The translations under genes and the position numbers were made by a program. From Streptomyces sp. QL37 (lineage in GTDB: Bacteria > Actinomycetota > Actinomycetes > Streptomycetales > Streptomycetaceae), in the NCBI RefSeq assembly GCF_002941025.1, contig NZ_PTJS01000001.1, positions 1,488,001 to 1,552,000 on the forward strand: a stretch of 64,000 nt of DNA. The letters run 5' to 3'. The notes under the pieces were generated by a model. The model did not search any database and was not told the origin of the DNA. It saw only the letters and a program-made list of their open reading frames with translations. This document shows positions 1,277 to 28,702 of this stretch, one piece after another (position 1 is the stretch's first letter; every line of letters begins with the position of its first letter).

Positions 1277-1278
1277 AC

Positions 1279-3871: not shown

Positions 3872-4042
3872 GACGGAGGACTGCGCGCGCCAGACAACTA
3901 AACGCCAGCCGCCTGCCTCGGGCCAGATAACACACCCCTCCCGGCCACGTCGCCCGCTTCCTGTAAGCCCCTGAGCGAACGTCTCGCCCTAAGCGTCTGC
4001 GGGACGGACTGGACGAACGCGAATCACACTCCTGGAGATGAC

Positions 4043-5301: not shown

Positions 5302-5362
5302 CCAATCCTCCAGCGCCGCCCCTTTCAGAGTCGCGCTGATCCGCAACTAACCGGAGCCCTCA

Positions 5363-6927: not shown

Positions 6928-7070
6928 TCTCCCCGCCGACCGGATCCCTGCGGCGTCGCCTCCGCAGCCCGACTCAGCGCCGCTGGCGGACCCCGCACAG
7001 AGGTCCTTCGTATCCCACTGCAGAAAGCTCGCTCATCAATCCGCTCCCCTCCCTCACCAGCACGCGCCGT

Positions 7071-7937: not shown

Positions 7938-7959
7938 CCCCCCGTGGAAAGGGAACATC

Positions 7960-9214: not shown

Positions 9215-9250
9215 GGGCGCGCCCTCCGTTTCCAACCCCCAGGACAGACC

Positions 9251-12572: not shown

Positions 12573-12582
12573 CCCCCACACT

Positions 12583-12616
12583 CCGGTTGCCGGGCCCTTC
12601 GCATCCCGGCAACCGG
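12583..12616 (+). terminator. 12-bp hairpin between genes (attenuator or terminator)
   Basis: CCGGTTGCCGGG at 12583-12594 pairs perfectly with 12605-12616 around a 10-nt loop. No T-run follows. The right arm abuts and partly includes the ribosome binding site of the next gene (GGAAGG), so the hairpin could also limit its translation. Confidence 0.55.
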
Positions 12617-12634
12617 AAGGAACGAGACCCCCGC

Positions 12635-14011
12635 ATGACGACCCCCTCCATCGACGCCCACGTCCGCCTCGATGTCCACCCTCACCACTCCAGCGCCGTG
12701 ACCGCCGTCCTGACCGGTTCCCAGGCCCATATCGCCCACGTTGCCCTGGAGGCCGGCAACTGGAGCGTCGTGGGCAAGAACACCCTGGTTCTGGCCCGCA
12801 TCGATCACGAGGAGCCTTACTGGGCCGAGTGGGCAGCCGAACAACTGGCCGCTGACGGCATCACCGTCGAGATCACCCCGAAGCTCCGGGAAGCCATGGA
12901 CGAGGAATGGACCTGGCCCAACTACCCGATGCACTGGTGCACCCGCAGCGAGATCCGCCAGGTCTCCAACGAGGCCCAGAAGATCCACGACGACATCCGC
13001 CACGGCCATCTCCTCATCCACGCCCACGCCCACGACGGCCACACCACCGTCGCAGTCGGCACCTACCTCCACCAGAGCAGCAAGTCCGTCTACCTCCACG
13101 GCGAGGACCACCTGCGCCAGGTCGCAGACACCTTCCAATCACCCGCCGCAGCCCTGATCGCCTTCGAAAAGGCCCACGGCGCCGCCATGCGCCCCGGCCC
13201 GGCTCCCCTGACCGACACCGAACAAGACACCGCCCAAGCCCGAACCTCGCTCGGCCCGCCTACCGCCGGGGCTGAGCCTCCGCGCCCGGAACCGGAAACC
13301 GTCCCCGTATACGCGGCCGACGCCGGCGACCACGACGCCCTCCTGGACACCTTCCTCGAAGATCACCGCGACTGGCAGAAGTGGCGCACCTGGTCCGACG
13401 ACACGACGCACGCCATCCACGAGGACCAGACCCTGCGCATCGAGCACGTCCACGAAACCGACCCCCACGAAACGGCGTGGACCGTGGCCGCTTACGAGAG
13501 CCCCGTCTCCGACCGCATGTGGGTCCTCACCGCCACCGGCGCCACCCCGGCCCCCGTACTGCGCGGGCTTCTGCATCACCTCGCCGACGCCGACAGCTCG
13601 GACACCCCTCTCGGCTCCCCCGTGGGCGAGAAGACCGTGACCGCCTCCACTCGCCCCCTCTCCGAAGCCGGGTGGAGCCACACCGTGGACGGACGAGGGA
13701 TCCGCTGGACATCCCCCACAGGAGACGCCGGGGTCCAGTTCGACGCCTTCGCGGCCCAGCGCCCGACTCAGAACCTGGCCACCTGGACCGTCTGGGGCGG
13801 CCCGAACCCCGACCGCCCCGCCTGGACCCTCACCGCCTCGCCGTACACGCCCAGCTCGCTGCTGGCCGACCTCTCCGAAAACCTCGCCTACGGAACCGGC
13901 ACCCGCCAGAAGCCGGCCACGAGCCGCCAGCGTCAAACACGCCCCGTCACCACTTCACCGGCCGTACCTGTCACCACCGGCGCCTGCCACCTACCCAGTC
14001 GTACGCGCTGA
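12635..14011 (+). CDS. DUF317-type protein, long form
   Basis: ATG 12635 follows GGAAGGAACGAG. The 458-aa product has an N-terminal region (WSVVGKNTLVLARIDHEEPYW, then GTYLHQSSKSVYLHGED) also seen in long Streptomyces DUF317 proteins. Two DUF317-like units follow in the C-terminal half: WTVAAYESPVSDRMWVLTAT and GWSHTVDGRGIRWTSPTGD...DRPAWTLTASPYTPSSLLADL. The tail is basic. It is the last gene of the +-strand block that begins at the window edge; function unknown. Confidence 0.85.
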   Translation: MTTPSIDAHVRLDVHPHHSSAVTAVLTGSQAHIAHVALEAGNWSVVGKNTLVLARIDHEEPYWAEWAAEQLAADGITVEITPKLREAMDEEWTWPNYPMHWCTRSEIRQVSNEAQKIHDDIRHGHLLIHAHAHDGHTTVAVGTYLHQSSKSVYLHGEDHLRQVADTFQSPAAALIAFEKAHGAAMRPGPAPLTDTEQDTAQARTSLGPPTAGAEPPRPEPETVPVYAADAGDHDALLDTFLEDHRDWQKWRTWSDDTTHAIHEDQTLRIEHVHETDPHETAWTVAAYESPVSDRMWVLTATGATPAPVLRGLLHHLADADSSDTPLGSPVGEKTVTASTRPLSEAGWSHTVDGRGIRWTSPTGDAGVQFDAFAAQRPTQNLATWTVWGGPNPDRPAWTLTASPYTPSSLLADLSENLAYGTGTRQKPATSRQRQTRPVTTSPAVPVTTGACHLPSRTR

Positions 14012-14196
14012 TCCTCAGAGACCAAACGACTCAACGTAGCGCGGAAAAATGCTGCCGATGCACCACAGGCCATCGGCCGGACCCCGAGCCAGGCCATCCG
14101 CGGAAGCGAACACTTGCACTCACTCGTATGAGGCACTCGACCAGGTGCACGTTCATTGGGTCCGACCCGCCGCTGCTCCAGAAGGTGCATCCAAAT

Positions 14197-14212
14197 TCGA
14201 ACGCATGCTCTA
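14197..14212. promoter_or_regulatory. SOS-box-like operator upstream of LexA-DBD operon
   Basis: TCGAAC-GCAT-GCTCTA fits the actinobacterial LexA box (GAAC-N4-GTTC) with one core mismatch (GCTC for GTTC). It lies 8 bp before the ATG at 14221 and overlaps the probable promoter/leader of a gene pair that encodes a LexA-type DNA-binding domain, which suggests autoregulation. The rest of 14012-14196 shows no gene. Confidence 0.5.
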
Positions 14213-14220
14213 ATTGGAGT

Positions 14221-14463
14221 ATGGCTCCGACACCCCCCTTCCCCTACGATCTCCTGCAAGCCGAGCGTGAGAGGCACGCCGCTTACCTGGCGCTCAGCAC
14301 CTTGAGCCCTGTCGAGAACACCGCCCTGCGTCGACGGCTGCTGCAGTTGTCCGCGCGGGTCTGGTGGCATCCGTTCTGGGGTACGAGGAATGGCCGGGCC
14401 TCGGCAGCCCGGATGGAACTCCAAAGGTCCGTCCGCGCGGCGGAGCAGGGCAGACCGGCATGA
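14221..14463 (+). CDS. hypothetical 80-aa protein
   Basis: ATG 14221 is preceded by TTGGAG. The product is short, basic and helical (YDLLQAERERHAAYLALSTL, LRRRLLQLSARVWWHPFWG). I recognise no family. Its stop overlaps the start of the LexA-like gene (ATGA), so the two are translationally coupled and share the SOS-like box. Confidence 0.7.
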   Translation: MAPTPPFPYDLLQAERERHAAYLALSTLSPVENTALRRRLLQLSARVWWHPFWGTRNGRASAARMELQRSVRAAEQGRPA

Positions 14464-14681
14464 CCGGTGACGCTCCCCTCAGTGCACGGCAGGAGTCGAT
14501 CCTCCAGGCGATCAAAGCCGCCATAACCGAGAGTGGTGAGGCGCCTAGCCTCCGCCAAATCGCCGAGCGGGTCGGCCTCACTAGTGCCAGCTCGGTCCAC
14601 TATCAACTGGGCCGGCTGGAAGAGCGGGGTCTAGTCCGTCGCACATCTCGCCGCTGGCGTTCGTGTCAGCTCTTGACCTGA
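14460..14681 (+). CDS. LexA N-terminal DNA-binding domain, stand-alone
   Basis: A 73-aa protein matching only the winged-helix DNA-binding domain of LexA: LSARQESILQAIKAAI, then SLRQIAERVGLTSASSVHYQ and LGRLEERGLVRR. The cleavage site and the Ser-Lys S24 peptidase domain are absent, so it cannot self-cleave on RecA filaments as LexA does. It may compete with LexA for SOS boxes or repress its own operon constitutively. ATG 14460 overlaps the upstream stop; the gene ends naturally with TGA and no peptidase remnant follows in 14682-14816. Confidence 0.85.
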   Translation: MTGDAPLSARQESILQAIKAAITESGEAPSLRQIAERVGLTSASSVHYQLGRLEERGLVRRTSRRWRSCQLLT

Positions 14682-14816
14682 AGTGCCAACCTTCGTAACC
14701 GTGATCGGAATACTGACCGCCCTCGTCGAGTCAGGTAGCCCATATCGGGGCTCCGCGGCCGAGAAGGCAAGGGTCACTGTGGCCATGGTGTCCGGCGAAC
14801 GATGCTGGTCACAGCG

Positions 14817-16139
14817 TCAGGCCGCGTGTAGTTTTTCGATGAAGTCGTCGACGCCGTCCACCTGCCGGTAGGGCTTGAAGGCTGGCGCGAGTTCGCGAAC
14901 CTGGGCCACGCATCGTTCGGCACCGATGCGGTGCGCCAGTTCAAGGGCTTCTTCCGTGACGGCGAGGGCGTGCTCGATGTGGCGGGACTGCAGGAGTCCT
15001 TTGGCCTGGTACGTCAGGAAGATGCCGCGTGTCTTGTCCCGGGCTTTCGGTAGCAGGCTGAGGCCCTCGCGCATCTTCGCCGAAGCATCATCGAGCTGGC
15101 CGAGGTCGAGCAGGCATTGACCGGAGTCGACCGCGAGGTCGGCGGGGCTCATCCATGAGCACCAGTTCGGTGCGGCATCGACGGGCTGCAACGACAGTGC
15201 CGTCTCGGCTTCGGAGAGATCGCGGTAGCAGAGGGAGCGTTCGCCGAGTGCGGCGTAGGCCCTGGCCCGGCGGAGGAACAGCAGCGACCGGGCGGTCGGG
15301 TGTTCGGTGCCGGTGATCGCGTGGCCGAGTTGGTCCACAGAGACGTTCGGTTGTCCGAGCCAGTTGGACTGATAGGCGAAATCAGATAAGACACCGGCTC
15401 CGAAGTCACGGTCGCCGGCGGCGTGGGAGGAGTGCAAGGCTGCCGTCCACAGCTTTCCCGCCGCGTAGTGCTTCCCTTGGTCGAACCGGTACCAGCCGCA
15501 TGTGGTGGACAGGGATGCGGCAAGGCTGTGCAGCCGTTTCGTAGATGTCCCGGTGTGGCGTCCGCCTTCGATCAGGTCGGTCACGGTTTCCAGGTGGGCG
15601 TCCATCATTTTGATGGTGTGCTGTCGCTGTTCGGTGGGGAGGCCGGTCAGTTTCCGGCTGGTTTCCTCCAGCCAGTCGATGAGCTCGTGATCGGCTGTCG
15701 TTCTTCCGCTGAGTGCGGAGGCGAGGTGGTCCGGTTCGATCGAGGCCCATTGGGCTCCGAGGCCGGCCAGTGCGGCTGCGCTGTAGGTCATGAAGGTGCG
15801 GCGATCCATGGCGGCTTTCTGTGCGTCGCGAAGGACTTGAACGGTGTACCCCGACCCCAGCGGCAGCGGGATCTCCGAGCCGGGCAGCCAGTCCGGCCAG
15901 CCGTACCGGTCCACGTTGGCCACAGGCACGTCGAACACTTCCGCATCGGCCATGAGGAGCTGGGTCTCGCGGTTCGGCCGCTGAAGCCAACGCTCGTACC
16001 GGCTGATGGTCGTCTTGTCGGCGCCAGAGCGCAGTCCGCGCTTCCGGGCAGCCCGGTCCAGGAGATGGGCCAGTTCGTTCTGGGACAGATCGTTGACTTC
16101 TCTGGCGTAGGCAAGCGGGTGCCGGATCGGGTTGTCCAC
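14817..16139 (-). CDS. XRE-family regulator with TPR-like C-terminal domain
   Basis: A 440-aa cytoplasmic regulator. The N-terminus has a helix-turn-helix of the XRE type (VNDLSQNELAHLLDRAARKR...TTISRYERWLQRPN, about residues 15-55). The rest is helical repeats resembling tetratricopeptides (for example TARSLLFLRRARAYAALGER, ALAVTEEALELAHRIGAERC). Such proteins are common pathway-specific regulators in Streptomyces. It is transcribed divergently from the 16.4-25.1 kb gene run, which makes that run its probable target. Confidence 0.88.
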   Translation of the reverse strand: MDNPIRHPLAYAREVNDLSQNELAHLLDRAARKRGLRSGADKTTISRYERWLQRPNRETQLLMADAEVFDVPVANVDRYGWPDWLPGSEIPLPLGSGYTVQVLRDAQKAAMDRRTFMTYSAAALAGLGAQWASIEPDHLASALSGRTTADHELIDWLEETSRKLTGLPTEQRQHTIKMMDAHLETVTDLIEGGRHTGTSTKRLHSLAASLSTTCGWYRFDQGKHYAAGKLWTAALHSSHAAGDRDFGAGVLSDFAYQSNWLGQPNVSVDQLGHAITGTEHPTARSLLFLRRARAYAALGERSLCYRDLSEAETALSLQPVDAAPNWCSWMSPADLAVDSGQCLLDLGQLDDASAKMREGLSLLPKARDKTRGIFLTYQAKGLLQSRHIEHALAVTEEALELAHRIGAERCVAQVRELAPAFKPYRQVDGVDDFIEKLHAA

Positions 16140-16162
16140 GCTTCGATTCCATCATCGACCGT

Positions 16163-16198
16163 GACGGCAACTCTACCGTCAGCGACGGCGAATCTACC
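16163..16198. promoter_or_regulatory. two direct repeats in divergent promoter region
   Basis: GACGGCAACTCTACC (16163-16177) is repeated as GACGGCGAATCTACC (16184-16198), 12 of 15 identical, offset by 21 bp or about two helical turns. It lies immediately upstream of the XRE/TPR gene and on the path to the divergent operon, so it is a candidate binding site for that regulator. Confidence 0.45.
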
Positions 16199-16411
16199 CC
16201 GCGTCTACAGGCAACTCCTGTCGTGTTGACGGAGGTTGGGCTGTACTCGACGCACATCGAGCAGGTTCCGCTCGAAGCCGGAAGAAGTCCTCCAGGAAAC
16301 GACAGCCGCAGACATCAGCCGGTGGCTCGCGCGCTCCCGGGTGACACCTCGATCCGGACGGTTCTCCGCCTGCGCTCCCATGTCGGAGCGCGAGATCGTG
16401 AAGGGACACCC

Positions 16412-17185
16412 ATGCCCAGATCCTCCGCTCCCCCGCCGGGGGACGCCGCTCGCCGCAACCGTCCTCTCCGCTGGCTCGCTAGTGGGGCCGGCCGGTCGTC
16501 TCGCCGGCCGCGCATCCTGATCGACGGACTGGACCTGTCGGGTAAGACGACCCTGACCGACGCCCTGCTCACCATGTGTGCCGCGCAAGGGACGGCGGCG
16601 GTACGCCACCGGGGGATGCTCGCTGAGCACCACCCGCTGGAGAAGCTTTTGAAGCGGCTGCCGCTGGCCCACCAGTACGAGTCGAGCGGAATCACCACCG
16701 CCTATCTCGTCGGGGGGTTCGCCCTGGACGCCCTGCTGGTCCACCTCGACCCGCCGCAGTGCGGCGACGCCGTCCTGGTCCAGGAAGGCTACGTGGATCG
16801 CACCATGGCCGTCGGCCTGGCCGGCGGTCCCTTTCTGTCGGCCGCCCTGGCGCTGTGGGCCGCGCGCTACTTCGCCGCCTTCGACGTCGCCGTATACGTG
16901 CACGCGTCCCCCGAGGCGCGCCGCGCCCGGATGCTGCGTCGCCAGCGCGTGGACGCCGGTGACCGCAACAGCGTCGAGGAAGGCTTCGCGGGCCGTTTCA
17001 ACTCGGCACTTCTGCACCACCTCGGCCGCCGTCACCACACGGTGCTGGTCTTCGATACGGAGCAGTACACCCCCCAGGAGATGGCCCGGCAGATCCTCTC
17101 GGTTGCGGGACTGCTGTCGGAGGAGACGCAACGGCCCAGCGGCGACGGCTTCGAACTCGTCGGACCTGCCACACCGGCGACCTGA
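16412..17185 (+). CDS. thymidylate-kinase-like P-loop kinase
   Basis: ATG 16412 follows AAGGGA. The 257-aa product carries a P-loop ILIDGLDLSGKTTLTDALL near residues 35-53 and an overall layout like dTMP kinase, including a lid-like RARMLRRQRVDAGDRNSVEEG. It probably phosphorylates a nucleotide or a related metabolite. The insertions and N-terminal extension differ from the housekeeping Tmk, so the substrate may be specialised. First gene of the run regulated by the divergent XRE/TPR protein; 22 bp separate it from the next gene. Confidence 0.75.
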   Translation: MPRSSAPPPGDAARRNRPLRWLASGAGRSSRRPRILIDGLDLSGKTTLTDALLTMCAAQGTAAVRHRGMLAEHHPLEKLLKRLPLAHQYESSGITTAYLVGGFALDALLVHLDPPQCGDAVLVQEGYVDRTMAVGLAGGPFLSAALALWAARYFAAFDVAVYVHASPEARRARMLRRQRVDAGDRNSVEEGFAGRFNSALLHHLGRRHHTVLVFDTEQYTPQEMARQILSVAGLLSEETQRPSGDGFELVGPATPAT

Positions 17186-17207
17186 ATCGTGAGCGAGGAG
17201 GACTGCC

Positions 17208-18773
17208 ATGCCCGGATACCCCGCCCGAGCAACATCGGACCTGAAGGTGTGCATCGATCTGATCGTCCGTCCCGGCCGGCACGCTCTGGCCCCTGACATC
17301 ACCGAGGCCCGGTTGGAGCGCGTGGCCGGCGCGGCGTCCGGGCGGCTCGGCAAGGACACGATCACCAGCCCGGACGCGCTCCGCCGGGCTCTGCGCGGGG
17401 CGCAACAGTCGGTTCCGTACCCGTTGTTGGTGAGCGTGAACCAGGAGGGGGGCCGGCTCAACGCACTCGACTGGCCGCAGGTGGCGCAGCTTCCCGCCAA
17501 CCTCGCTCTCGGTGCGGGCCGGGACCCGGAGGCCGCCGAGCTGGCCGGGTCGGTAGTCGCTGGCCAGCTGCGGGCTGCGGGACTGACGTGGAATCTGGCG
17601 CCGGTGTGCGATCTGGCGACGTGGCCGTCCGTGCCCGCGGTCGGAACGCGGTCCTACGGCTCGGACCCGAAAGCCGTGGCCGCTATGGCGGCGGCCTACG
17701 TCCGGGGCCTGCAGGGCGGCAAAGTCGCAGCGACGGCGAAGCATTTTCCGGGACTGGGCGGGATCACGGTGGACCCCCACCACGACGCCCCCGTGACCGA
17801 ACGGCTCCCCCACGGAGCGCTGCTGCCTTTTCGGGCCGCGGTGGAGGCCGGGGTGGCGTGCGTGATGGCAGGCAGCCACACAGTGCGGGCCCTTGATGAC
17901 CGGCCCGCGTTCGCGTCGCCGCGCGTCCTTGGACTGCTGCGGGACGACCTCGGCTTCACCGGCGTGATCGTCAGCGAGAACCTGTCGATCCCCGCGGTCC
18001 ACCAGCCGCTCGGCGGACTCAGCGAAGCAGCAGTGGCAGCCGTTGCCGCCGGCGTGGACATCGTGATGCTGGACTCCGAGATCTCCCGCGGCCACCAGGA
18101 CTTCGCCCAACGAGCGGCCGGCGTGCGGCGCCGCGCGCTCGTCACCCGGGCCCTGTGGGACGCGGTGCGTGAACACCGGTTGAGTCAGGACCGGATCGAA
18201 GAGGCCGCGGCCCGTGTGCGGGCGCTGCACCACGCCTACGGTCTCGGCGCCGACGCCGTCCTTCCGTCGTGGGAGGAGGCGAACGCGGCGGCCGAGCACG
18301 CGGCCCGGCGTATCGCGGACCGGTCGGTGACCGTGGTGCGTGGTCGCCATGTCCTCCCGCTCTCCTCCACCGAACCGGTGCTCGCGGTGCGCGTACCGGA
18401 CACCGGGGAGCGCCGGGCCGACAGTGCCCGCCGGGCCCCGGATCATCTGCCCGGCTCCCTTGCCAGGCACCGGCCCGTGACCTCTCTCAGCCCGTGTGCT
18501 GCCATGCCGCCGGGCACCGGCACGGTCGTGGTCTACGGGTACGACACCGGCAGCGCCGCGGCGGCCGAGGCGGCCCGGTGGGTCGGTGCCGGGCGTGTGG
18601 TCGTCCAGGTCGCCCTCGGTGATCCGGACGACTTGGCCGGCTCGTCGGCCGATGTCCTGGTAGCGGCGTTCAGCCCGCATCGCTCCAGCGCCGAGTCGGT
18701 GGCGGACCTCCTGCTGGGTGGCAGGGCTCCCGGCCCTGCCGCTGTCCCCGTAGGAGGCACGGCATGGCAATAA
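17208..18773 (+). CDS. glycoside hydrolase family 3-like protein with altered nucleophile
   Basis: A 521-aa protein with the GH3 N-terminal barrel of the NagZ type: VSVNQEGGRLNAL, AKHFPGLGG (Lys178-His179), the Asp-x-His dyad at Asp189-His191, and GFTGVIVSENLSI. In NagZ the last motif is SDD, whose Asp is the nucleophile; here it is Glu257-Asn258. Hydrolase activity is therefore uncertain; it may be a phosphorylase-like variant, a binder, or act on an unusual sugar. The C-terminal 150 residues resemble the second GH3 domain. It overlaps the Ldh-type gene by 10 bp. Confidence 0.82.
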   Translation: MPGYPARATSDLKVCIDLIVRPGRHALAPDITEARLERVAGAASGRLGKDTITSPDALRRALRGAQQSVPYPLLVSVNQEGGRLNALDWPQVAQLPANLALGAGRDPEAAELAGSVVAGQLRAAGLTWNLAPVCDLATWPSVPAVGTRSYGSDPKAVAAMAAAYVRGLQGGKVAATAKHFPGLGGITVDPHHDAPVTERLPHGALLPFRAAVEAGVACVMAGSHTVRALDDRPAFASPRVLGLLRDDLGFTGVIVSENLSIPAVHQPLGGLSEAAVAAVAAGVDIVMLDSEISRGHQDFAQRAAGVRRRALVTRALWDAVREHRLSQDRIEEAAARVRALHHAYGLGADAVLPSWEEANAAAEHAARRIADRSVTVVRGRHVLPLSSTEPVLAVRVPDTGERRADSARRAPDHLPGSLARHRPVTSLSPCAAMPPGTGTVVVYGYDTGSAAAAEAARWVGAGRVVVQVALGDPDDLAGSSADVLVAAFSPHRSSAESVADLLLGGRAPGPAAVPVGGTAWQ

Positions 18774-19813
18774 CGGTGCGCCCCGAAGAACTGACCGACT
18801 ACCTGATCCGCTTGTACCTGGCGGCGGGAATGACCAGGCGTGGAGCGCGAACGGTGGCCGCCGCGCAGGTAGAGGCTGACCTCCGGGGCGTTGCCGGCCA
18901 CGGCAGCAGGCTCGCTCCTGGGTATGTGGCCAAGCTGCGCTCCGGACGTCTGACAGCCCGGCCGAAGATGATCCGCCGACCGGCCGGGGCCGGCTGCTTG
19001 GTCCTGAACGCGGACCGGGCACCCGGTCCGCTGGCCGTGGAACACGCGGTCTCCTTCGCGGCCACCGGGGCGCCCCGCCAGGGCGTCGTGCTCGTCATCG
19101 TGCGCAACGCCGGCCACGCCGGGGCACTCGGTGTGGGAGCCGCGCAGCTGGCCCGGCGCGGGCTGGTCGGGGTGCTGGCCGCCCAGACGTCCGGGCCGAG
19201 CGTGGCCGTCCTGGGTGGTCCGGGGACAGCGCTGCTGGGCAACTCGGCGCTGGCTGTGGCCCTTCCCGGTACCGACCCGCAGCGGCCGGCGCTGCTGGAT
19301 ATGGCCGCCGGGCCCATGTCCTGGGGCCGCCTGCACGAGCATGCCCGCACCGGTCGTCAGCTGCCCGAAGGCTGCGCGCTCGACCAATCTGGGCAGCCGA
19401 CCCGCGACCCGGGGCGGGCCGCGGTCCTACTTCCGTCCGGCGAACGGGCCCAGGCGCTGGTCATCGTGCTGGAGCTGCTGGTCGGCGCGCTGACCGGAAG
19501 CCCCGCACTGCCCTGCGGGGACGACGGCCGGGGTCTGCTGTGCCTGGCTATCGACCCTGCCCGTCTGGGTACCGGCGGTCAGCTCGCCGGTGCCGTCGCC
19601 GAAGTCGCCCTTGCCCTCAGCGAGCACGGCGCCCGGCTGCCCGGCGAACGCGCCTGGGCCCATCACGACCATGCCGCCACCCAGGGCGTCAGCCTGGCCG
19701 AACCGGATCTGGCCGCGCTGATCGCCGCCGGCGACCCGCACGTGCACCCACCGCGCGCCTGGACCACCCGCCAGGACGACCGCACCGACAACTCCAGTGA
19801 GGTACTGCTGTGA
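18764..19813 (+). CDS. Ldh-family (malate/L-sulfolactate type) oxidoreductase
   Basis: A 349-aa member of the Ldh_2 family of NAD(P)-dependent 2-hydroxyacid dehydrogenases. Supporting blocks are QVEADLRGVAGHGSRLAPGYV near residues 30-50 (family: ADLRGVDSHG), VRNAGHAGALG (family: NSNHFG-like) and LLDMAAGPMSWGR. Members reduce or oxidise malate, lactate, ureidoglycolate or imine substrates. The canonical catalytic His lies in the GHGSR block. It overlaps its neighbours on both sides (10 bp and GTGA), so it belongs to the same transcript as the glycosidase and radical SAM genes. Confidence 0.82.
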   Translation: MAITVRPEELTDYLIRLYLAAGMTRRGARTVAAAQVEADLRGVAGHGSRLAPGYVAKLRSGRLTARPKMIRRPAGAGCLVLNADRAPGPLAVEHAVSFAATGAPRQGVVLVIVRNAGHAGALGVGAAQLARRGLVGVLAAQTSGPSVAVLGGPGTALLGNSALAVALPGTDPQRPALLDMAAGPMSWGRLHEHARTGRQLPEGCALDQSGQPTRDPGRAAVLLPSGERAQALVIVLELLVGALTGSPALPCGDDGRGLLCLAIDPARLGTGGQLAGAVAEVALALSEHGARLPGERAWAHHDHAATQGVSLAEPDLAALIAAGDPHVHPPRAWTTRQDDRTDNSSEVLL

Positions 19814-21408
19814 CCACGCACGCCACACCGCCCACCACCGCGGCCATGGCCCGGCTCCTCGACGTCGGCCCCCGGGTCCTTCACGACCGAGGACTGCGCC
19901 CGGACGCCGCTCAGGCTCTACAGAGCGCCCTGGACATCGCGGACCCGTACCCGGTGGTCACCACCGCTCGCCGCCTGTGCGACGGGGTGCTGGAATTCGC
20001 TCTCGCCGACGTCGTCGGCCAGCGGCTGCTCCACGAAGTGACGGGCCGCCGCATCCCGTTGCAGGAGCTGCCGTCCCGGACCCTGCGCCCGCTGACGGCC
20101 CGCCACCGACTCAGTGCGGAACAGGTAGACGCGCTGCACTTCGTGCTCCGCTGCACCTTCGCCTACCCCGGCATCGTCGGCACCCCCCACGCGCCCCTCG
20201 CGCTGAAGACCGCGCTGCCCGACGGCTTCCAGCCGGTCGCCACGGCCCAGGAGATCGCCGCGACCCAGGCGATGGCCGGCCCCGACGGCCTGAACACCAG
20301 TTACATGGTGTCGCAGATGAAGGGCGGGGTCTCGGTCGACTTCGGGATCGGCTGCCCGCTGATGTGCGCCTACTGCTACCGGCGCGAGGGCGACACCGTC
20401 GACGGCTACCTCGGCTCATGGGAACCCACCGGGTTCCTGACCGCAGAGCAGGCGGTCGAGCGGTTGCTCGCCCACCCCTGGTTCACCCCGCACGTCACCC
20501 CGATCGGTCTGCACATGTCCACCAGCGAGGCGTTCCTGCCCAAGCTGTGGCCCAGAACGTGGGCCGCCCTGCAGCTCCTGGACCGCCTGGGACTGACCAA
20601 CCGCGTCTCCTGCATCACTAAGTACACGCTGTCCGACGAGCAGATCGCATGCCTGGAGTCCCTCGTCAACGTCGACCTCGACGTCAACGTCTGCTACGCC
20701 GCGATGCCCGAGGCGATCGAGCCGCCCAACCGCAAACGACGTCTGGACTTCCTGCGCCGCATCCTGACGTCGGACCGGATCAACACCCTCGCCTACTACC
20801 GGCCCATCGCCGAAGGCATCAACACCACCGATGCCCACCTGCGCCACGTCTGGGAAACCTTCAGAGAGGCAGGTGCCCGCACCATCGTTCTCGGGGGCCT
20901 GAAGTTCGGCGACGACCACGTCCACTCCTTCATGTCCTACGGCCTGCCGCTACCCAGCGGGTCCTTCACCCCGGGCAAGAAGCTGCTGACCAGCGCCACC
21001 GAGAAACGCATCATGACCGCGTTCGACAAGGTGTACGCCGATGTCCCCGCGAACGAACGGCCGGCCGTCCTCAAGCGCTCCTCCTGCGGCCGGTCGGTCG
21101 AACGCGGCAGCCACATCCCCGACTACAACGGCCACTACGACCTGCCCCAGACCAACTGCCGCCTGCGCTGCCCCACCGCCCAGCACGATGTGTGCGCGGC
21201 CAGCCAGAGCCCTGACGAGGAGACCGTCCGCCAGCTCCTGGCCCGCATCGACCGGGAAGGGACACCGGTCAACATCACCCCCTCCACCGTCGTCGTCCAC
21301 GCCGACATCAGCCCGTTCGAGCGCACGTTCCTGCGCCAGAACCTCCTCCACCCCGTCCACACGGCCCGCCAGGCCGCCGAACTCGTCGCCGGAAGGCTCT
21401 CCGCATGA
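19810..21408 (+). CDS. radical SAM enzyme with extra C-terminal cysteines
   Basis: A 532-aa radical SAM protein. The cluster motif is Cys182-x3-Cys186-x2-Cys189 in IGCPLMCAYCYR, the arrangement that binds the 4Fe-4S centre which cleaves S-adenosylmethionine; the Cys-Tyr ending resembles spore photoproduct lyase. Four further cysteines (426, 450, 454, 462; NCRLRCPTAQHDVC) could hold an auxiliary iron-sulfur centre. The first 150 residues form a separate helical domain. The reaction is unknown. GTG 19810 overlaps the upstream stop, and the gene end overlaps the glycosyltransferase (ATGA). Confidence 0.88.
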   Translation: MTTHATPPTTAAMARLLDVGPRVLHDRGLRPDAAQALQSALDIADPYPVVTTARRLCDGVLEFALADVVGQRLLHEVTGRRIPLQELPSRTLRPLTARHRLSAEQVDALHFVLRCTFAYPGIVGTPHAPLALKTALPDGFQPVATAQEIAATQAMAGPDGLNTSYMVSQMKGGVSVDFGIGCPLMCAYCYRREGDTVDGYLGSWEPTGFLTAEQAVERLLAHPWFTPHVTPIGLHMSTSEAFLPKLWPRTWAALQLLDRLGLTNRVSCITKYTLSDEQIACLESLVNVDLDVNVCYAAMPEAIEPPNRKRRLDFLRRILTSDRINTLAYYRPIAEGINTTDAHLRHVWETFREAGARTIVLGGLKFGDDHVHSFMSYGLPLPSGSFTPGKKLLTSATEKRIMTAFDKVYADVPANERPAVLKRSSCGRSVERGSHIPDYNGHYDLPQTNCRLRCPTAQHDVCAASQSPDEETVRQLLARIDREGTPVNITPSTVVVHADISPFERTFLRQNLLHPVHTARQAAELVAGRLSA

Positions 21409-23528
21409 CCACCCTCCCACCGCGCACCTACCTGCCGCTGGCCCAGTCCCCGCTACTCACCGGCCGGACGAACCGTGCGGACGCCGAACTCGCCATCCGG
21501 CTGGCCCATCAGGCATTACCCGACCCGGCCACCATCCGCTCCCTCCTCAGCGTTCGCACCCCCGAGGCCGCCGACCAGATCACCGCCGCCCTGGAAGCCC
21601 GGACCGACCTGCCCCCTGCAGCACTCGCCCTGCTGGTGGCCCACCGCCCAGCGTCCAAGCCGGCCACGTCCCGGCTCAAGAACCTGCTCTTCCCCGGCAC
21701 GGCCGCTGGGTGTCACACCTTCGCCCGCACGATGGCCCAGCTCGCCCACCGCCCCGAAACGATCGACCACCTGTTCCTGGCCAGCCCCCGCTTCGCCGAA
21801 GCCGCTGCCACCGTGAACCCCCAGGCGCTGAACGACCTCCTCGCGCCCCTGCTCGCCGCCCCCGTCCTGACCGGGCCCGCCGACGCGGCCCTGGGGGCCC
21901 TCATCCAGGCCCGCAGCGCGGCGCAGATCACGGCAAGCGACCTCGACCAGGCCGCCGCCCGTGCGAGAGAACGCACCCGGCGCAACCGGATCGGCACCGA
22001 ACTCGCCGCCCGGCGCGAGGAAACGATCGCCGCTCTCGCCCAGCACACCGCCGGCCTCACCCTGGCCGCCACCCTCTGGTTCGGCGCACTCGCCGAGGCC
22101 GCCGACACCCCGCAGAACGCCGGACGCGCCCTGGCGGTAGCCCTCCTTGCCCCGCGCACGCTCGCCGCCGACGCGGTGCCCGACTGCCCCTGGCCCGCCG
22201 TCCAGGCCCGCTGGCAGCAGCTTCGAGCCGCCGCTCGCGCCGCGAGCCGGCACCCCCAGGTCTGGTCAACGGCCTGGCAGAAGGCCGCCACCACCGCAGA
22301 CGGGTCCACCTGGGACCCCAGCCAACGGGCGCTGATCGCCGGCTACGACCTTCTCTCTGAGCACGTCCGCACCCACTACACAGCGGACACTCCCACCCCC
22401 GAGCGGTGCTGGGCCTCCGACCCGGCAGGACGTGCCCTGCTGCACACCATCGCGGACCACCTCACCGGCCACCTCGGGCACAGCCCGCTGCCGCACTTCG
22501 ATGACGCCCTGCTCATCACCTTCGTCCAGGCCCACGCCAAGAACAGCCGGCACAAGATCCCCGGCGCCCTGCACATCCACGGGCTGATCGCCGCGCTCAA
22601 GGCAGCCCGCTCGAAAGCGGCGCTCCTCACCCTCACCCAGACACCCGACGTCGGCATCGTCATCCCCATGCGCTCCGAAACCGGCCGGCTCGCCCCCGCC
22701 TCACCCGATAACCCCGACGGACTCGACGCCCTGGCCGCAAAGACCGCACAGCTCGCCTGGCTCCTCGAAACCCGTCCCGACGCCCGCGCGCACCTGCTGC
22801 TCATCGACGAGGCTTTTGACAGCGCCTCCGCACAGGCCGCCGCCGAACTGACCGGCTCCCACCCCCGGATCAGCATCACCATCGCGCACCGAGCGGCAGT
22901 GACCAGCAGCAAGGGCGGAGCGGTGCTGTGGGGCCTCAACCAGCTGCACGCCGCCGGCCACACGACCCTCGCCTACACCGACCTCGACCTCACCTACCCC
23001 CTCGACCAGCTGGGCCTGCATCTCGAAGCGCTGACCCACTCCGGAGCCGGGGCGGCAATCGGGTCGCGCCGTAGGCCCGACTCGCACGGCTACTACCCGC
23101 CCGCCGGCCCCACGCCTGCCACCCTGCTCTACGTGCAGGCGGCCAACGAACTCCTCAGCCTGCACGTCACCGACCCCCAGGCCGGGTTCAAGGCGTTCAC
23201 CCGCACCGCTCTCGCCGCAGCCCTGCCCCAGGTCACCGATCACCGGCTGTCCTTCGACACCGACCTGCTCGGCGCCCTCCAGCACACCGGCAACCACGTC
23301 ATCGAGGTCGGTATCGCCGCCCTGCACCGCTACGTGGACGGCCAGGTCGGCACGCCCCGCGACTACGACACCATGCTCGCCGCAGTCCACCAGCAGGCAG
23401 TACGCCACGGGCTCGACCCCAGCAACCGGGCCACCCCGATCTGGGACCGGATCCGCGAGGCCGGCTCCCTGACCGCCGCCGCGGCCCCTGAACCCCTCTC
23501 CATTTCGATCACACCCCCCACCCGCTGA
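21405..23528 (+). CDS. two-part protein: unknown N-terminal half plus GT2-type glycosyltransferase
   Basis: A 707-aa protein. The C-terminal 300 residues are a GT-A glycosyltransferase: VGIVIPMRSE opening strand, metal site DLD at Asp526/Asp528 (AYTDLDLTYPL), AAIGSRR, and TDPQAGFKAFTRTAL as in family 2 dolichyl-phosphate-mannose-synthase-like enzymes. The N-terminal 400 residues are helical and Ala-rich and match nothing I know. Leu38 is encoded by TTA (21516-21518), a codon read in Streptomyces by the bldA tRNA and often used to delay expression. It is followed by a hairpin and a new promoter region before the next gene. Confidence 0.82.
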   Translation: MTTLPPRTYLPLAQSPLLTGRTNRADAELAIRLAHQALPDPATIRSLLSVRTPEAADQITAALEARTDLPPAALALLVAHRPASKPATSRLKNLLFPGTAAGCHTFARTMAQLAHRPETIDHLFLASPRFAEAAATVNPQALNDLLAPLLAAPVLTGPADAALGALIQARSAAQITASDLDQAAARARERTRRNRIGTELAARREETIAALAQHTAGLTLAATLWFGALAEAADTPQNAGRALAVALLAPRTLAADAVPDCPWPAVQARWQQLRAAARAASRHPQVWSTAWQKAATTADGSTWDPSQRALIAGYDLLSEHVRTHYTADTPTPERCWASDPAGRALLHTIADHLTGHLGHSPLPHFDDALLITFVQAHAKNSRHKIPGALHIHGLIAALKAARSKAALLTLTQTPDVGIVIPMRSETGRLAPASPDNPDGLDALAAKTAQLAWLLETRPDARAHLLLIDEAFDSASAQAAAELTGSHPRISITIAHRAAVTSSKGGAVLWGLNQLHAAGHTTLAYTDLDLTYPLDQLGLHLEALTHSGAGAAIGSRRRPDSHGYYPPAGPTPATLLYVQAANELLSLHVTDPQAGFKAFTRTALAAALPQVTDHRLSFDTDLLGALQHTGNHVIEVGIAALHRYVDGQVGTPRDYDTMLAAVHQQAVRHGLDPSNRATPIWDRIREAGSLTAAAAPEPLSISITPPTR

Positions 23529-23546
23529 TCCAGAAGACGCACTCCG

Positions 23547-23581
23547 CCAAGCCGCCTCGCTCAACAGCGATGGCGGCTTGG
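23547..23581 (+). terminator. 10-bp hairpin after glycosyltransferase gene
   Basis: CCAAGCCGCC (23547-23556) pairs with GGCGGCTTGG (23572-23581) around a 15-nt loop. No T-run follows. It ends the overlapping five-gene run; a -10-like TAGACT near 23638 suggests a fresh promoter for the nucleotidyltransferase. Confidence 0.55.
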
Positions 23582-23718
23582 CCAGTTGAGCGCAACCGCC
23601 ACGGACTGCGGGTTCACGGAAACCGTGCACGGTATGCGTAGACTGTCGCGCCTATCCCGCCCCGCCGGGCCCTGCCGGAGGACCACAGGCAGAGCCCGCA
23701 CCCACCCGAAGGGCCCGC

Positions 23719-24564
23719 GTGAGTCGCGCCGTCATCGCCGTAGCCGGCATGGGAACCCGCTTCTTCCCCATCGCCAAATCGGTCAACAAGTGCATGCTGC
23801 CGGTACTCGACCAACCCGTCCTCGCCTACGCGGTCGCCGACTGCCTGGCAGCGGGCGTGCGCGAGATCGCGATCGTCACCTCGCAGGGCGAGGGTGGACG
23901 GCAGGTCCGCCACTACTTCACCGAAGACCACGGCATGCGGGACTACTTCGCCGCCCGCGGCTGGCAGAAGAAGTACGAACCGATCGCACACCTTCACGAC
24001 CAGGCGGACTTCCACTTCATCGAGCAGCCCCGCGACGGCGACCGCTACGGAACGGCCCTGCCCGCGATCCTGGCCGCCGAATTCATCGGCGACCAGGACT
24101 TCTTCCTCATCGCGGGGGACGACCTGCTCCTGCGGACCGACGGCGGATCCGACCTCGCCGACCTCGCCGCCGCCCGCGACGCCGCCGGCACCGCGGGTGC
24201 TGTCGCCGCCGCCACCGTCCCCGGCAGCGACGCCCACCGCTACGGCATCCTGAAGCCCCGAAACACGGAGGACGGCCAGCAGGTAATGGACGACCTGCTG
24301 GAAAAGCCGACCGCCTACGGCGCACCGACGGCCTACATCAACATCAGCCGCACCCTGCTTCCCGCCGAGGCCACCGCCTACTTCGAGAAGCTCACCCCGG
24401 CCGCGAACGGCGAGTACCAGGCCACCGATGCCATCACCGCCTTCGCCCGCGACCACAACGTGCTCATCCACCCCGTCACCGGCCAGTACTTCGACTGCGG
24501 CAACCCGACAGGCTGGCTGGCCGCCAACAACGCTGCCGCCCTCCAGTCGCGGACGGACTCATGA
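23719..24564 (+). CDS. GalU-like sugar-phosphate nucleotidyltransferase
   Basis: GTG 23719 follows GAAGGG. The 281-aa product has the nucleotidyltransferase signature in a modified form: AVAGMGTRFFPIAKSVNKCMLPV (usual G-x-G-T-R-x-x-P-x-T-K). It continues with VLAYAVADCLAAGV, a metal-binding GDD at FFLIAGDDLLL, and GYFDCGNPTGW-like ending. GalU enzymes join UTP and glucose-1-phosphate. The nearby glycosyltransferase could use the resulting nucleotide sugar. It overlaps the NUDIX gene (ATGA). Confidence 0.85.
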   Translation: MSRAVIAVAGMGTRFFPIAKSVNKCMLPVLDQPVLAYAVADCLAAGVREIAIVTSQGEGGRQVRHYFTEDHGMRDYFAARGWQKKYEPIAHLHDQADFHFIEQPRDGDRYGTALPAILAAEFIGDQDFFLIAGDDLLLRTDGGSDLADLAAARDAAGTAGAVAAATVPGSDAHRYGILKPRNTEDGQQVMDDLLEKPTAYGAPTAYINISRTLLPAEATAYFEKLTPAANGEYQATDAITAFARDHNVLIHPVTGQYFDCGNPTGWLAANNAAALQSRTDS

Positions 24565-25076
24565 CCACGACGGGCGCCGTTCCGGCCATCGCGATCCGCA
24601 CCTGCGCAGCCATCATCGAAAGCGACGAGATCTGCCTGATCCGCCGGGCCCGCCCCGATGGAGACCAGTACTCACTGCCGGGCGGGCTCCTCCACCCGGA
24701 CGAGGAAGTACCTGTCGCCCTCGCCCGCGAACTCAAGGAAGAGCTCGATCTCGACGTCACCGCCCTCCCCGACCGTCCCCGGTTGCGCTGGGCACAAGAC
24801 CAGATCACCACACGCCCCGGCAGAACCGGCACGTTCCGCCGGCTCCACCTCATCCATCTTCTGGCCATCCCCCGCCACGTCCGGGCCGCCCTCCCCACAA
24901 CCGAGCAAGACGCCGAAGACGTCACCAGCGTGGTCTGGGTCCCCCTCGCGCAGGCCGCCCGCCGCCACCTCTACCCCGCCGTCGGTAACGCGCTCAGTGA
25001 GCTGACCGAGCCCACCGACCCGCCCAGCGACGTGCTGCTCCCCCCGATCACCGACCAGACGTACACCTGGCGCTGA
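24561..25076 (+). CDS. NUDIX hydrolase
   Basis: A 171-aa NUDIX hydrolase that cleaves nucleoside diphosphate-linked compounds. The NUDIX box is complete (second Gly of PGG, then Glu, then RELKEELDLDV) except that the usual late Gly is Asp. ATG 24561 overlaps the upstream stop. Last gene of the +-strand run; it may remove or recycle nucleotide intermediates made by the kinase and nucleotidyltransferase. Confidence 0.88.
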   Translation: MTTTGAVPAIAIRTCAAIIESDEICLIRRARPDGDQYSLPGGLLHPDEEVPVALARELKEELDLDVTALPDRPRLRWAQDQITTRPGRTGTFRRLHLIHLLAIPRHVRAALPTTEQDAEDVTSVVWVPLAQAARRHLYPAVGNALSELTEPTDPPSDVLLPPITDQTYTWR

Positions 25077-25530
25077 CCAAGCGGTTGGGAGCCGCCGTAA
25101 CGCGTAACAGACGCGGAGGCCGTATCCCTCCAGCCGTCAAGACCGCCATACGACTGGCCCTACGGCCCGGCCCGCTGGGGCGTCGCCATCCGACTTCTTG
25201 ATCGCTCGGTGCGACGCCACCATGTCGGGTGCTCTACCTCGTGACCATCCACTCCCACGCCGCCTTCCCAACCTGCGTAGCGAAGCCGCCAACCGCGGAC
25301 AGCGCGAGAAAACGGGCCAGCGCGCAGGGAGAGGCGAACGAATCTTGCGTCATTCGATAGCCGCCGCCCAGCGACCGCGCAACATAGCGCGGGATCGCCG
25401 GTTAGCCAAACCGGCGATCCCGCGCATCATTGATAGTCCACCGCCACGCCCCACCCGCACGTCGAAAGGCTTCGCCCTCACGACCACAGAACAGCCACGA
25501 AGCGGCCACGACCGAGAGGCCGGCAGGCGA
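25077..25530. other. intergenic region between convergent genes
   Basis: No gene is supported here. The only clear structure is the 17-bp hairpin at 25387-25425. The rest shows no recognisable promoter or repeat. Confidence 0.6.
25387..25425. terminator. 17-bp perfect hairpin, likely bidirectional terminator
   Basis: GCGCGGGATCGCCGGTT (25387-25403) pairs perfectly with 25409-25425 around a 5-nt loop (AGCCA). It lies between the convergent NUDIX and NucS-like genes. No T-run is present on either strand, as is common in GC-rich actinobacteria. Confidence 0.65.
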
Positions 25531-26418
25531 TCACGCTGCTGCGAAGCTCGCCCGGAACAGCTCCTGTGCCCGCTCCAGGTCCCGTGGGGTACGCAGCTGC
25601 ACCTCCAGGTCGCCCGTCCCGTGGTGACCGAGCCCGGACACGTCCCGGGTGAATCCCGGTACGAGGTCGACGTCCTTCGGATCGACCTTCAGGTAGACCA
25701 GCACCTTGCTCCGCTGCGGCGGACACAGGCAAGCAAAGTTCCGCAGCCGCTGGTACGCCCGGTACGTCTTGCGCTCGACACGCTTCACGCCGCCCCCGAG
25801 CCCGAGCAGCGCCTCGTCCACCGCACCCGCCAGCTCCACCATCGACGCGCCCTGAACGTCGGCCGCTGCCCGAACAACCGCCTGCCGACGCGCCCGACGG
25901 GCCACCCGCATGCCGCCGCTCACCGACGCCACGGTCTCAAGCCCGAGCAGATCGCTGCCGAAGAGTCGGTAGCGGACCAGGTCGATAGACCGACGGTGCT
26001 CGCGCACGGCATGCACGTCGTAGCGGGTGAAGTCGCCAGCGATACAGATCAGGCGTGGGCCGCTCCACAGGACCTGGGACGCGGCCGTCACCCCGAGCCG
26101 GTCGCGGACCAGGTGCTCGAACTCCGCCCGGTGGTCCATCAGCCACGAGAGGTAGAAAAGCCCCTGGTTGATGACGCCGGCGTCGACACCGCGCTTGTAC
26201 TCAATGAGGACTGGCGACCCGTTCTCGTCCAGCCCCAGCGAATCGATCCGGCCCCCGTGCACCGGACCCGTTCCGTACTCGCTCGCCAGGAACCGCACCC
26301 CCAGCAGCGTCTCCATGTGCGCCTCGACAAGACCCTGCACATCGGCCTCGACCTCAGCAAGACGCGGCACGACCTCGGTCATGCCGCCATTCACCATGTC
26401 CATGCGAAACAACTTCAG
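25531..26418 (-). CDS. NucS-like N-terminal / DUF5655 protein, probable CTG start
   Basis: A 295-aa protein found widely in actinobacteria. The N-terminal half has a PD-(D/E)xK-like nuclease core as in NucS/DUF91 proteins: GGRIDSLGLDENGSPVLIEYKRG, then INQGLFYLSWLMDHRAEF. The C-terminal half matches DUF5655 (RKTYRAYQRLRNFACLCP, KVLVYLKVDPKDVDLVPGF). The family normally begins near LKLFR; here that segment begins at CTG 26418, 6 nt after a strong GAGGAGGGG. ATG starts further down would trim it and one much further up adds 46 unlikely residues. A role in DNA repair or restriction is possible but unproven. Confidence 0.8.
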   Translation of the reverse strand: MKLFRMDMVNGGMTEVVPRLAEVEADVQGLVEAHMETLLGVRFLASEYGTGPVHGGRIDSLGLDENGSPVLIEYKRGVDAGVINQGLFYLSWLMDHRAEFEHLVRDRLGVTAASQVLWSGPRLICIAGDFTRYDVHAVREHRRSIDLVRYRLFGSDLLGLETVASVSGGMRVARRARRQAVVRAAADVQGASMVELAGAVDEALLGLGGGVKRVERKTYRAYQRLRNFACLCPPQRSKVLVYLKVDPKDVDLVPGFTRDVSGLGHHGTGDLEVQLRTPRDLERAQELFRASFAAA

Positions 26419-26631
26419 GCTCGACCCCTCCTCGGCTCGGAGGTCATCAACGCCGAAAAGGTGCGGGATTGTTTCCGCGAGAGGCCACGAGGGCGTGAAG
26501 GTGATGTGAGAGCCTACGTACGAGCCGGCCGGAGAGCACTCGCCTCCCCCAGCCACCAGGGACCAGCGATTCCCCCATGCGTCCCCCGCGACCTGAGGGA
26601 CAGGGCCCGGAAGCTGCGTTTACGCAGGTCA

Positions 26632-26704
26632 GCCCCCGTAGCTCAGCGGACAGAGCACGTGCCTTCTAAGCGCTTGGCCGCAGGTTCGAGTCCTGCCGGG
26701 GGCG
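26632..26704 (+). tRNA. tRNA-Arg (anticodon TCT)
   Basis: A 73-nt cloverleaf: acceptor GCCCCCG paired with CGGGGGC (26697-26703) and discriminator G, D-stem GCTC/GAGC, T-arm GCAGG-TTCGAGT-CCTGC. The anticodon loop is CTTCTAA (26663-26669), anticodon TCT at 26665-26667, reading AGA. In the anticodon stem the outermost pair is C-T and one inner pair is G-T. CCA is not encoded. No duplicated 3' end that would mark an attachment site was seen. Confidence 0.93.
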
Positions 26705-26724
26705 CACATTGCGCACAACTGTGA

Positions 26725-27868: not shown

Positions 27869-28702
27869 TCAGCCGAGGGGGACGATGCCTCGGCCGGTAG
27901 TGGCCTCGGAAAGGCGGTGGCTGTCGCCCTGCGTGACGACGACGTGGGCGTGATGCAGGAGCCGGTCGACGGTCGCGGTGGCGAGGGTCTTGGGCATGAT
28001 CTCGTCGAATCCCGACGGATGAAGATTGCTGCTGACGGCCAGACTCCGCCGTTCGTAAGCAGCATCGACCAGACGGTAGAAGCCCTCGGCTGCGTCCGGC
28101 GAGACGGGCAGGAGCCCGATGTCGTCAACGATGATCAAGTCGGTCCGGGTGATCCGACTGATGGCCTTCGAGACGGAGTCGTCGACGCGGTGACGGCGGA
28201 TCAGAGCTCCGAGGTCCTCGATGGTGAACCAGGCGACCGTCATCCCGGCGTCGACGGCCAACTGGCCGAGTGCCTCGCTGAAGTGCGACTTCCCCGTCCC
28301 CGAGGGGCCGACGACGCAGAGATTCTCGCGCCGGCCGACCCATTCCAGGGTCCGCAGCGCGGACTGTGTCGGGACCGGGATCGAGGACGCCTCCTCGTTC
28401 CAGATGTGGAAAGTCTTGCCGGTCGGGAAGGCAGCGCGAGTGCGGCGGGTGCGGAGGTTGGCCGCGTCGCGGCCGGCGGCCTCTTCCGCCAGCAGGGCCC
28501 GGACGGCCTCGGCGGGATCCCAGCGTTGGGCCTTCGCGGTGGGGATGATCTCCGTCATCGCCCGGCGGATGTGCGGCAGCTTCAGTCGCCGGGTCAGCGC
28601 GATCGCCTCGTCGAACGCGGCGCCGGACGTAGCGGCGACCGCCGAAGCGGGTGCTTGCATGCGGGGCAGCGTCGCGGCGGGTTGGGCAGGGCTGTCGTTC
28701 AT
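27869..28702 (-). CDS. istB: IstB-like ATPase of an IS21 element (no partner istA)
   Basis: A 277-aa IstB helper ATPase: Walker A GPSGTGKSHF, Walker B DLIIVDDIGLLP, and SSNLHPSGFDEIMPKTLA. IstB supports IstA in IS21 transposition. The gene looks intact from ATG 28702, but the istA that should precede it on the minus strand is missing, replaced by an unrelated + strand gene. It is therefore an orphan and probably inactive on its own. Confidence 0.9.
   Translation of the reverse strand: MNDSPAQPAATLPRMQAPASAVAATSGAAFDEAIALTRRLKLPHIRRAMTEIIPTAKAQRWDPAEAVRALLAEEAAGRDAANLRTRRTRAAFPTGKTFHIWNEEASSIPVPTQSALRTLEWVGRRENLCVVGPSGTGKSHFSEALGQLAVDAGMTVAWFTIEDLGALIRRHRVDDSVSKAISRITRTDLIIVDDIGLLPVSPDAAEGFYRLVDAAYERRSLAVSSNLHPSGFDEIMPKTLATATVDRLLHHAHVVVTQGDSHRLSEATTGRGIVPLG

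Follow-up and report, generated by a model that had tools for sequence, protein, structure and literature searches.

What does a run of seven same-strand genes in Streptomyces sp. QL37, built around a radical S-adenosylmethionine (SAM) protein, make, and is it a unit at all? The run lies in a window of 64,000 nucleotides (nt), by which we mean the whole stretch analysed, positions 1,488,001–1,552,000 of the 8.77 Mb contig NZ_PTJS01000001.1. An earlier note on this DNA had described seven genes behind a divergent XRE/TPR regulator and taken them for one biosynthetic run with a single radical step. The open reading frame (ORF) calls confirm this layout, with KIN, GH3, LDH, RSAM, GT, a GalU-like gene and NUDIX all on the + strand downstream of a divergent regulator of the NsdA family. 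Five of these families (GH3, LDH, RSAM, GT and GalU, here called the core) occur together in seven loci from two phyla; they are a conserved orphan biosynthetic cassette, for which a plausible mechanism can be drawn. The features of the run are:

14817..16139, − strand: divergent XRE/TPR regulator, NsdA family (NF053720, E 5.9e-91, 306.1 bits against a cut-off of 75)
16412..17185, + strand: KIN, a P-loop kinase, weakly thymidylate-kinase-like, accessory and not conserved (ORF 16223–17185, start inferred)
17208..18773, + strand: GH3 protein, NagZ-like, with Glu at the nucleophile position and the Asp-His pair kept (PF00933, E 1.4e-60)
18764..19813, + strand: LDH, an Ldh_2-family NAD(P)-dependent oxidoreductase (PF02615, E 5.4e-59)
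19810..21408, + strand: RSAM, with a CX3CX2C motif, four C-terminal cysteines and an N-terminal extension (PF04055, E 1.7e-4, 22.2 bits)
21405..23528, + strand: GT, a helical N-terminal region and a C-terminal GT-A domain with a DLD motif (structure model)
23719..24564, + strand: GalU-like sugar-1-phosphate nucleotidyltransferase (NTP_transferase, E 1.7e-22; TIGR01099, E 5.6e-48)
24561..25076, + strand: NUDIX hydrolase, accessory (PF00293, E 8e-14)

Overlaps of 10 nt (GH3/LDH) and of 4 nt each (LDH/RSAM, RSAM/GT and GalU/NUDIX) join these genes, and gaps of 22 nt and 190 nt separate KIN from GH3 and GT from GalU. With RSAM as the bait for the conservation searches, a scan of 84,980 species' genomes (one each, the window's own genome excluded) with six exact peptide patterns, which is blind to relatives sharing none of the six peptides, found four full-length relatives, in Micromonospora alfalfae (76% identity), M. 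parastrephiae (77%), M. zingiberis (64%) and Fictibacillus nanhaiensis (60%). Profile searches found five full-length proteins among 160 genomes of the M. alfalfae genus, two of them new (G757 and G768), and a shorter kind of RSAM in nine other genomes there. Among 397 genomes of the Fictibacillus order the full-length protein was seen nowhere beyond Fictibacillus itself, and among 394 genomes of the window's class it was seen in the window only, the short kind being present in 12 others. Within the window's own genus, 14 of 198 other genomes have an RSAM match, at 28–38% identity and none covering the first 125 residues. At E 1e-4 none of the 14 neighbourhoods of these short proteins (17–20 kb each, some ending at contig ends) contains a match to GH3, LDH, GT or GalU, and the single weak XRE match lies about 8 kb from the short RSAM of L024. 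A search of 245 other genomes of the genus likewise returned no full-length GT relative, all matches among those listed beginning at residue 396 or later.

The homologues of the core are not scattered singly without order, a pattern that the earlier note had set against its own proposal: the order GH3–LDH–RSAM–GT–GalU is kept on one strand in the window and in five Micromonospora loci (L060, L061, L062, L122 and L123). The seventh locus belongs to Fictibacillus (Bacillota, L063) and has the order LDH–RSAM–GT–(PHP+GH3), with a UDPGP-type pyrophosphorylase in place of GalU, upstream and past the regulator. Among the actinobacterial loci the ratio of nonsynonymous to synonymous substitution rates (dN/dS, Nei-Gojobori) was 0.15–0.45 over 24 gene-by-pair comparisons (five pairs, four for GalU), the ratios of the wider pairs being rough because their dS is near or above 1, and these copies of the core set are under purifying selection. 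Since the five core families recur as a group in six other loci and dN/dS is below 0.5 in the computed pairs, the run is real and more than a chance grouping. A single biosynthetic run with one radical SAM gene, as first proposed, is thus supported. The two GH3 matches on plasmids at E 1e-40 and the two LDH matches there at E 1e-20 were distant, searches with GT found no relative in viral contigs and none on plasmids, and the full-length RSAM subfamily was absent from the viral contigs searched, where the wide RSAM family has seven loci at 28–34% identity. The phages searched contained no short RSAM.

What sets RSAM apart is an N-terminal extension of about 150 residues that the short relatives do not have. 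In the alignment of the seven loci, C182, C186 and C189 (the CX3CX2C motif) and the four C-terminal cysteines are invariant, and the protein would form a new RSAM subfamily. Its PF04055 score lies under the curated 29.5 bits, so we provisionally call it a divergent, radical-SAM-like protein, by motif and domain match. The core of the short plasmid proteins is 29–33% identical to it and shares all four C-terminal cysteines in each of the 11 aligned rows and CX3CX2C in 10 of 11 (the L059 row begins after the motif). In Fictibacillus the RSAM frame (L063:9743-11749) extends past its end in the other loci, giving 668 residues against 528–541, and GT (L063:11715-13799), in a different frame, starts further on and overlaps it by 35 bases, which gives a fusion-like arrangement. 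The tail of this RSAM is weakly similar to the start of GT, a hint that RSAM and GT may work side by side.

The GH3 protein exceeds the PF00933 cut-off of 27 by far (205.9 bits), and a five-member profile matches the solved structure 6k5j at E 7.9e-82. It resembles NagZ-type beta-N-acetylglucosaminidases (6k5j, YbbD), with which the barrel and second domain align over most of the protein, the Asp-His pair included (Asp189 and His191, invariant, like Glu257, in 7/7 loci). The nucleophile of GH3 enzymes is an Asp at the position of Glu257. All seven members of the run have Glu there and PGLG in place of PGHG, as opposed to Asp in five of five GH3 paralogs (one at window 59904-62219, the other four in the genomes of Micromonospora and Fictibacillus) and Asp with PGHG in 6k5j and 4zm6, the two solved relatives for which alignments were inspected. 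PGHG is present in four of the five paralogs, the one at window 59904-62219 differing there. The altered nucleophile that the earlier note had pointed out is therefore a property of the whole group, and the protein is provisionally filed here as a GH3-fold protein that lacks the Asp nucleophile.

The other three core proteins are easier to place by fold than by substrate. LDH scores 200.4 bits against PF02615 (cut-off 38.8) and has a Gly/Ser-His-Gly motif in 7/7 loci; the substrates of Ldh_2 enzymes are 2-hydroxy or 2-oxo acids. GT gave no significant Pfam match (Glycos_transf_2 at E 0.25) and sequence searches found no credible solved relative. A structure model from five sequences (mean predicted local distance difference test, pLDDT, 79.8) places a C-terminal GT-A fold behind a helical region of about residues 1–400 (Foldseek, VIA-align), with D526 and D528 of the DLD motif invariant in 7/7 loci. 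Its best structural matches include soluble hydroxy-acid glycosyltransferases as well as dolichyl-phosphate mannose synthase, ArnC and GtrB, and no 19-residue stretch exceeds 1.6 on the Kyte-Doolittle scale. Compared with mannosylglycerate synthase and glucosyl-3-phosphoglycerate synthase it shares 14–18% identity and adds the helical N-terminal region, and lipid-phosphate glycosyltransferases score equally. The GalU-like protein stays below the equivalog cut-off of TIGR01099 (163.8 bits against 326.8); all 16 solved relatives found are named UTP-glucose-1-phosphate uridylyltransferase or alike (best 5j49, E 3e-36), and it is likely a UDP-sugar pyrophosphorylase, the step that homology appears to secure most firmly.

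How could these enzymes work together? The GalU-like enzyme (UDPGP in Fictibacillus) would make a UDP-hexose, most likely UDP-glucose, and the GT-A enzyme would transfer the sugar to a small acceptor, plausibly a hydroxy acid or a similar polar alcohol. RSAM would cleave SAM at its CX3CX2C cluster for one C–H activation on the glycoside or aglycone, its four C-terminal cysteines holding a second Fe–S cluster, and LDH would set the oxidation state of an alcohol or ketone carbon. GH3, with Glu for Asp, would take off or transfer the sugar, and glycosylation would serve as a temporary handle or mask; KIN and NUDIX in the window strain would be extras that serve phosphorylation and clean-up. The presence of GH3 beside GT suggests that a sugar is put on and then taken off. 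The earlier note had expected synthesis of a nucleotide-activated sugar or a glycoside, which is partly supported: that two pyrophosphorylase families take the same place fits the supply of a UDP-sugar donor, and the activated sugar itself need not be the product.

To the reading of the run as a rare biosynthetic operon, moved between lineages, in which a UDP-sugar is made, an acceptor glycosylated, modification carried out by RSAM and LDH and release by GH3, we give an even chance. In the form that we prefer, with substrate and product hypothetical, a hydroxy-acid-like acceptor would be glycosylated, altered by RSAM and LDH and freed by GH3, because the GT domain matches hydroxy-acid glycosyltransferases (tied with lipid-phosphate ones), because no 19-residue stretch of GT exceeds 1.6 in hydropathy and because of the substrates of Ldh_2 enzymes. 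More tentatively, and with the balance against it, the run could represent a natural-product pathway of a new class: a sugar handle would be placed on a hydroxy-acid-like substrate for a new RSAM subfamily with two Fe–S clusters, a GH3 with Glu would cut it off, and the cassette would have passed between Actinomycetota and Bacillota. If the reading of the run holds, the pathway is a small orphan one built on a radical enzyme, with a new subfamily of RSAM and a group of GH3 proteins in which the catalytic residue has changed. With only five genes, all with clear partners, it could be expressed whole, so that the radical reaction and the removable sugar handle are directly testable, and Streptomyces SNU607, near-identical outside a missing block (see below), is a possible natural minus-strain for metabolite comparison.

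The earlier note knew of no described pathway with this set, and a limited open-access literature search, with most subscription papers outside its scope, found no paper recognisable as describing it. By analogy, the nearest published logic seems to be that of the nucleocidin cluster of Streptomyces calvus, which has a UDP-glucose-dependent glycosyltransferase (nucGT), a glucosidase that removes the sugar (nucGS) and a radical SAM gene (nucJ) (PMC7017864). The likeness is one of function, the families of NucGT, NucGS and NucJ not having been compared with ours, and nucleocidin, unlike the run, has an adenosine core and a sulfamoyl group in that account (PMC7017864), of which the run gave no sign. 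The nearest small radical SAM nucleoside cluster would be that of 4'-thiothymidine in Photorhabdus asymbiotica, thmA-C, where ThmA is presumed to alter the sugar part of a nucleoside. By gene content its adjoining kinase and nucleotide hydrolase recall KIN and NUDIX; the cluster consists, however, of three genes, without GT, GH3, LDH or pyrophosphorylase (PMC12691670).

These precedents bear on a different reading, possible but in our view doubtful, that the run is a nucleoside antibiotic pathway, RSAM altering the nucleoside sugar, GT and GH3 glucosylating and deglucosylating, and the kinases and NUDIX handling nucleotides. NucGT and NucGS are a precedent for it, Fictibacillus has two thymidylate-kinase-like genes, and two Streptomyces plasmid neighbourhoods of short RSAM contain thymidylate synthase and nucleoside diphosphate kinase (NDK). 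Moreover, in four of six plasmid neighbourhoods viewed, short RSAM relatives (29–33% identity) are accompanied by a 3'-5' exonuclease and an AAA kinase, an arrangement resembling thmA-B-C (PMC12691670). However, KIN is unmatched in the six other loci and family searches recognised no nucleoside-forming enzyme in the core; the plasmid cassettes, for their part, differ from the run in that the short RSAM has no N-terminal extension and keeps other gene company, and the Nostoc neighbourhood has no exonuclease and the Roseibium one neither exonuclease nor kinase.

Viperins make modified nucleotides that poison a phage enzyme, and a product of the run acting in such a way would be an intracellular chemical phage defence, which we judge unlikely. 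It would fit the sporadic distribution, the DUF5655 protein adjoining the run, which matches the PADLOC candidate PDC-S18 at E 2.8e-139, the matches of NUDIX to PDC-S07 (E 5.8e-9) and, weakly, of KIN to VakA (E 1.1e-5), and the occurrence of stand-alone GalU relatives near DUF2397, DUF2398, SbcC-like and DUF2399 genes on a plasmid and near a Ku gene. None of the five core proteins, however, matches a PADLOC model at E 0.01, the viral contigs searched had no full-length RSAM relative, and the pathway has several steps, with an acyl carrier protein (ACP) in Fictibacillus and downstream ORFs there that look ABC-transporter-like by eye, without a family search. Just as improbable, we think, is that GT uses a lipid phosphate as acceptor and the run modifies a glycolipid or polymer of the cell surface: the structural matches of the GT domain to dolichyl-phosphate mannose synthase, ArnC and GtrB point that way, and the hydropathy of GT, the lack of any transporter, flippase or polymerase match in family searches of the run, and a rare, patchy distribution that we judge unusual for envelope genes point away from it. 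That unrelated genes came together by chance is hardly credible, given their co-occurrence and dN/dS values, even if single families such as GH3 are common, with several paralogs in each Micromonospora genome.

Returning to the preferred reading of a glycosylated hydroxy-acid-like acceptor, several observations weigh against it besides the rough dN/dS values of the wider pairs, the low RSAM domain score and the PADLOC match of NUDIX. The acceptor and product are hypothetical, being proposed from sequence, and the GT fold scores, tied between hydroxy-acid and lipid-phosphate enzymes, do not separate a soluble from a lipid acceptor. A GH3 protein with Glu might be incapable of hydrolysis. No credible solved relative of RSAM was found by sequence; its structure model is poor (pLDDT 61), and the best PDB match from that poor model is pyruvate formate-lyase activating enzyme at E 7.1e-4. 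The comparison of the Fictibacillus RSAM tail with the start of GT is short, and weaker with L060 (E 0.005). GalU is split by a frameshift in L061. In L123 the XRE/TPR gene is 1.5 kb from GH3 with ORFs in between, and no such gene was seen in the 3 kb examined upstream of the L062 run, where an HTH protein of a different appearance stands further up. Finally, downstream of PHP+GH3 the Fictibacillus locus contains two thymidylate-kinase-like genes, ACP, a luciferase-like monooxygenase, and CYTH, nucleotidyltransferase and PqqD-like genes; with these extra genes in the locus, PHP included, the pathway there may differ.

The accessory genes also fall outside the conserved set, and here the proposal of seven genes as one unit is not supported: neither KIN (by tblastn) nor NUDIX gave a match at E 1e-4 in the six other loci (L060–L063, L122 and L123). 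KIN probably starts at ATG 16412, which is preceded by GAAGGGA, a ribosome-binding-like sequence. It scores below the cut-offs of both dTMP kinase models (TIGR00041, 14.8 bits against 83.25; PF02223, 13.6 against 27) and has no credible solved relative by sequence. We considered it as the counterpart of the thymidylate-kinase-like proteins of Fictibacillus and rejected this, the likeness being no more than a 30-residue P-loop match. Among 149 other Streptomyces genomes one has a KIN relative at 49%, and two more are marginal. In this genome (L135:4354-13076) 2.3 kb and a single ORF separate the relative from a 46% relative of the NsdA-family regulator, and genes for an aminotransferase, a GT and a TauD dioxygenase lie in line with it. 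Regulator and kinase thus seem to stand at the head of biosynthetic runs of more than one kind. For NUDIX, a copy 97% identical adjoins GalU in SNU607, and L018 has a 42-residue fragment.

In six of the seven loci (the window, L060, L061, L063, L122 and L123) the run is preceded by a divergent XRE/TPR gene. The regulators of the window, L060, L122 and L123 pass the NF053720 cut-off and that of L061 is 95.5% identical to the L060 one; the Fictibacillus protein has no NF053720 match and is another XRE/TPR protein. With KIN starting at 16412, positions 16140–16411 are left as a divergent control region, on which the regulator would act.

The extent of the unit can also be viewed from Streptomyces SNU607 (NZ_CP050439), which matches the window from −782 to 14835 and from 23469 to 26564 at 95.6–96.8% DNA identity and has one block missing:

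14836..23468, no strand: 8,633-base block absent from the otherwise colinear SNU607 record (DNA comparison with NZ_CP050439)

This block comprises nearly all of the regulator, KIN, GH3, LDH, RSAM and GT, so that the stretch which this near-identical relative lacks reaches from the regulator as far as the end of GT and is not the set of seven genes first proposed. SNU607 retains the final 19 bases of the regulator and the final 19 codons of GT, and as gene ends remain at both sides, loss is more likely than gain. The region flanking the run has a TraG/type IV secretion system-like gene and three DUF317 genes. Two small circular SNU607 records (L017 and L102) have 2,051 bases in common at 99.9% identity, for which reason their status as separate plasmids is doubtful; the SNU607 record may have arisen as an excision circle or in assembly. 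We rejected the SNU607 record as the plasmid form of an integrated element, given these common bases and a join at L017 position 12163 without a core common to the chromosome ends. For the same reasons no attachment site is claimed, the missing block resting on colinearity alone. The tRNA-Arg gene at 26632-26705 was rejected as integration site, no second copy of its end being present in the 18 kb searched leftward; an IS21-type IstB helper ATPase (27869-28702, − strand) lies directly past it.

Parts of the run are also found apart from it. Two linear plasmids carry GalU relatives (82–84%) unaccompanied by the rest of the core, in one case together with a NUDIX fragment, and a third plasmid has a 49-residue GT fragment. 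The DUF2397, DUF2398, SbcC-like and DUF2399 genes adjoining a stand-alone GalU relative on a linear plasmid we take to be Wadjet-like. The short-RSAM cassettes with exonuclease and AAA kinase are those of L054, L055, L057 and L059 (by Pfam for L054 and L057); by analogy, they may represent a thmA-C-like nucleoside pathway. Two of the plasmid cassettes have an aldo/keto reductase, the Nostoc plasmid (L058) has short RSAM with the kinase, and in Roseibium (L056) an IS30 transposase adjoins. The DUF5655 protein beside the run (25531-26556, − strand) has a weak NucS-like part, and SNU607 holds a copy 97.7% identical together with GalU and NUDIX.

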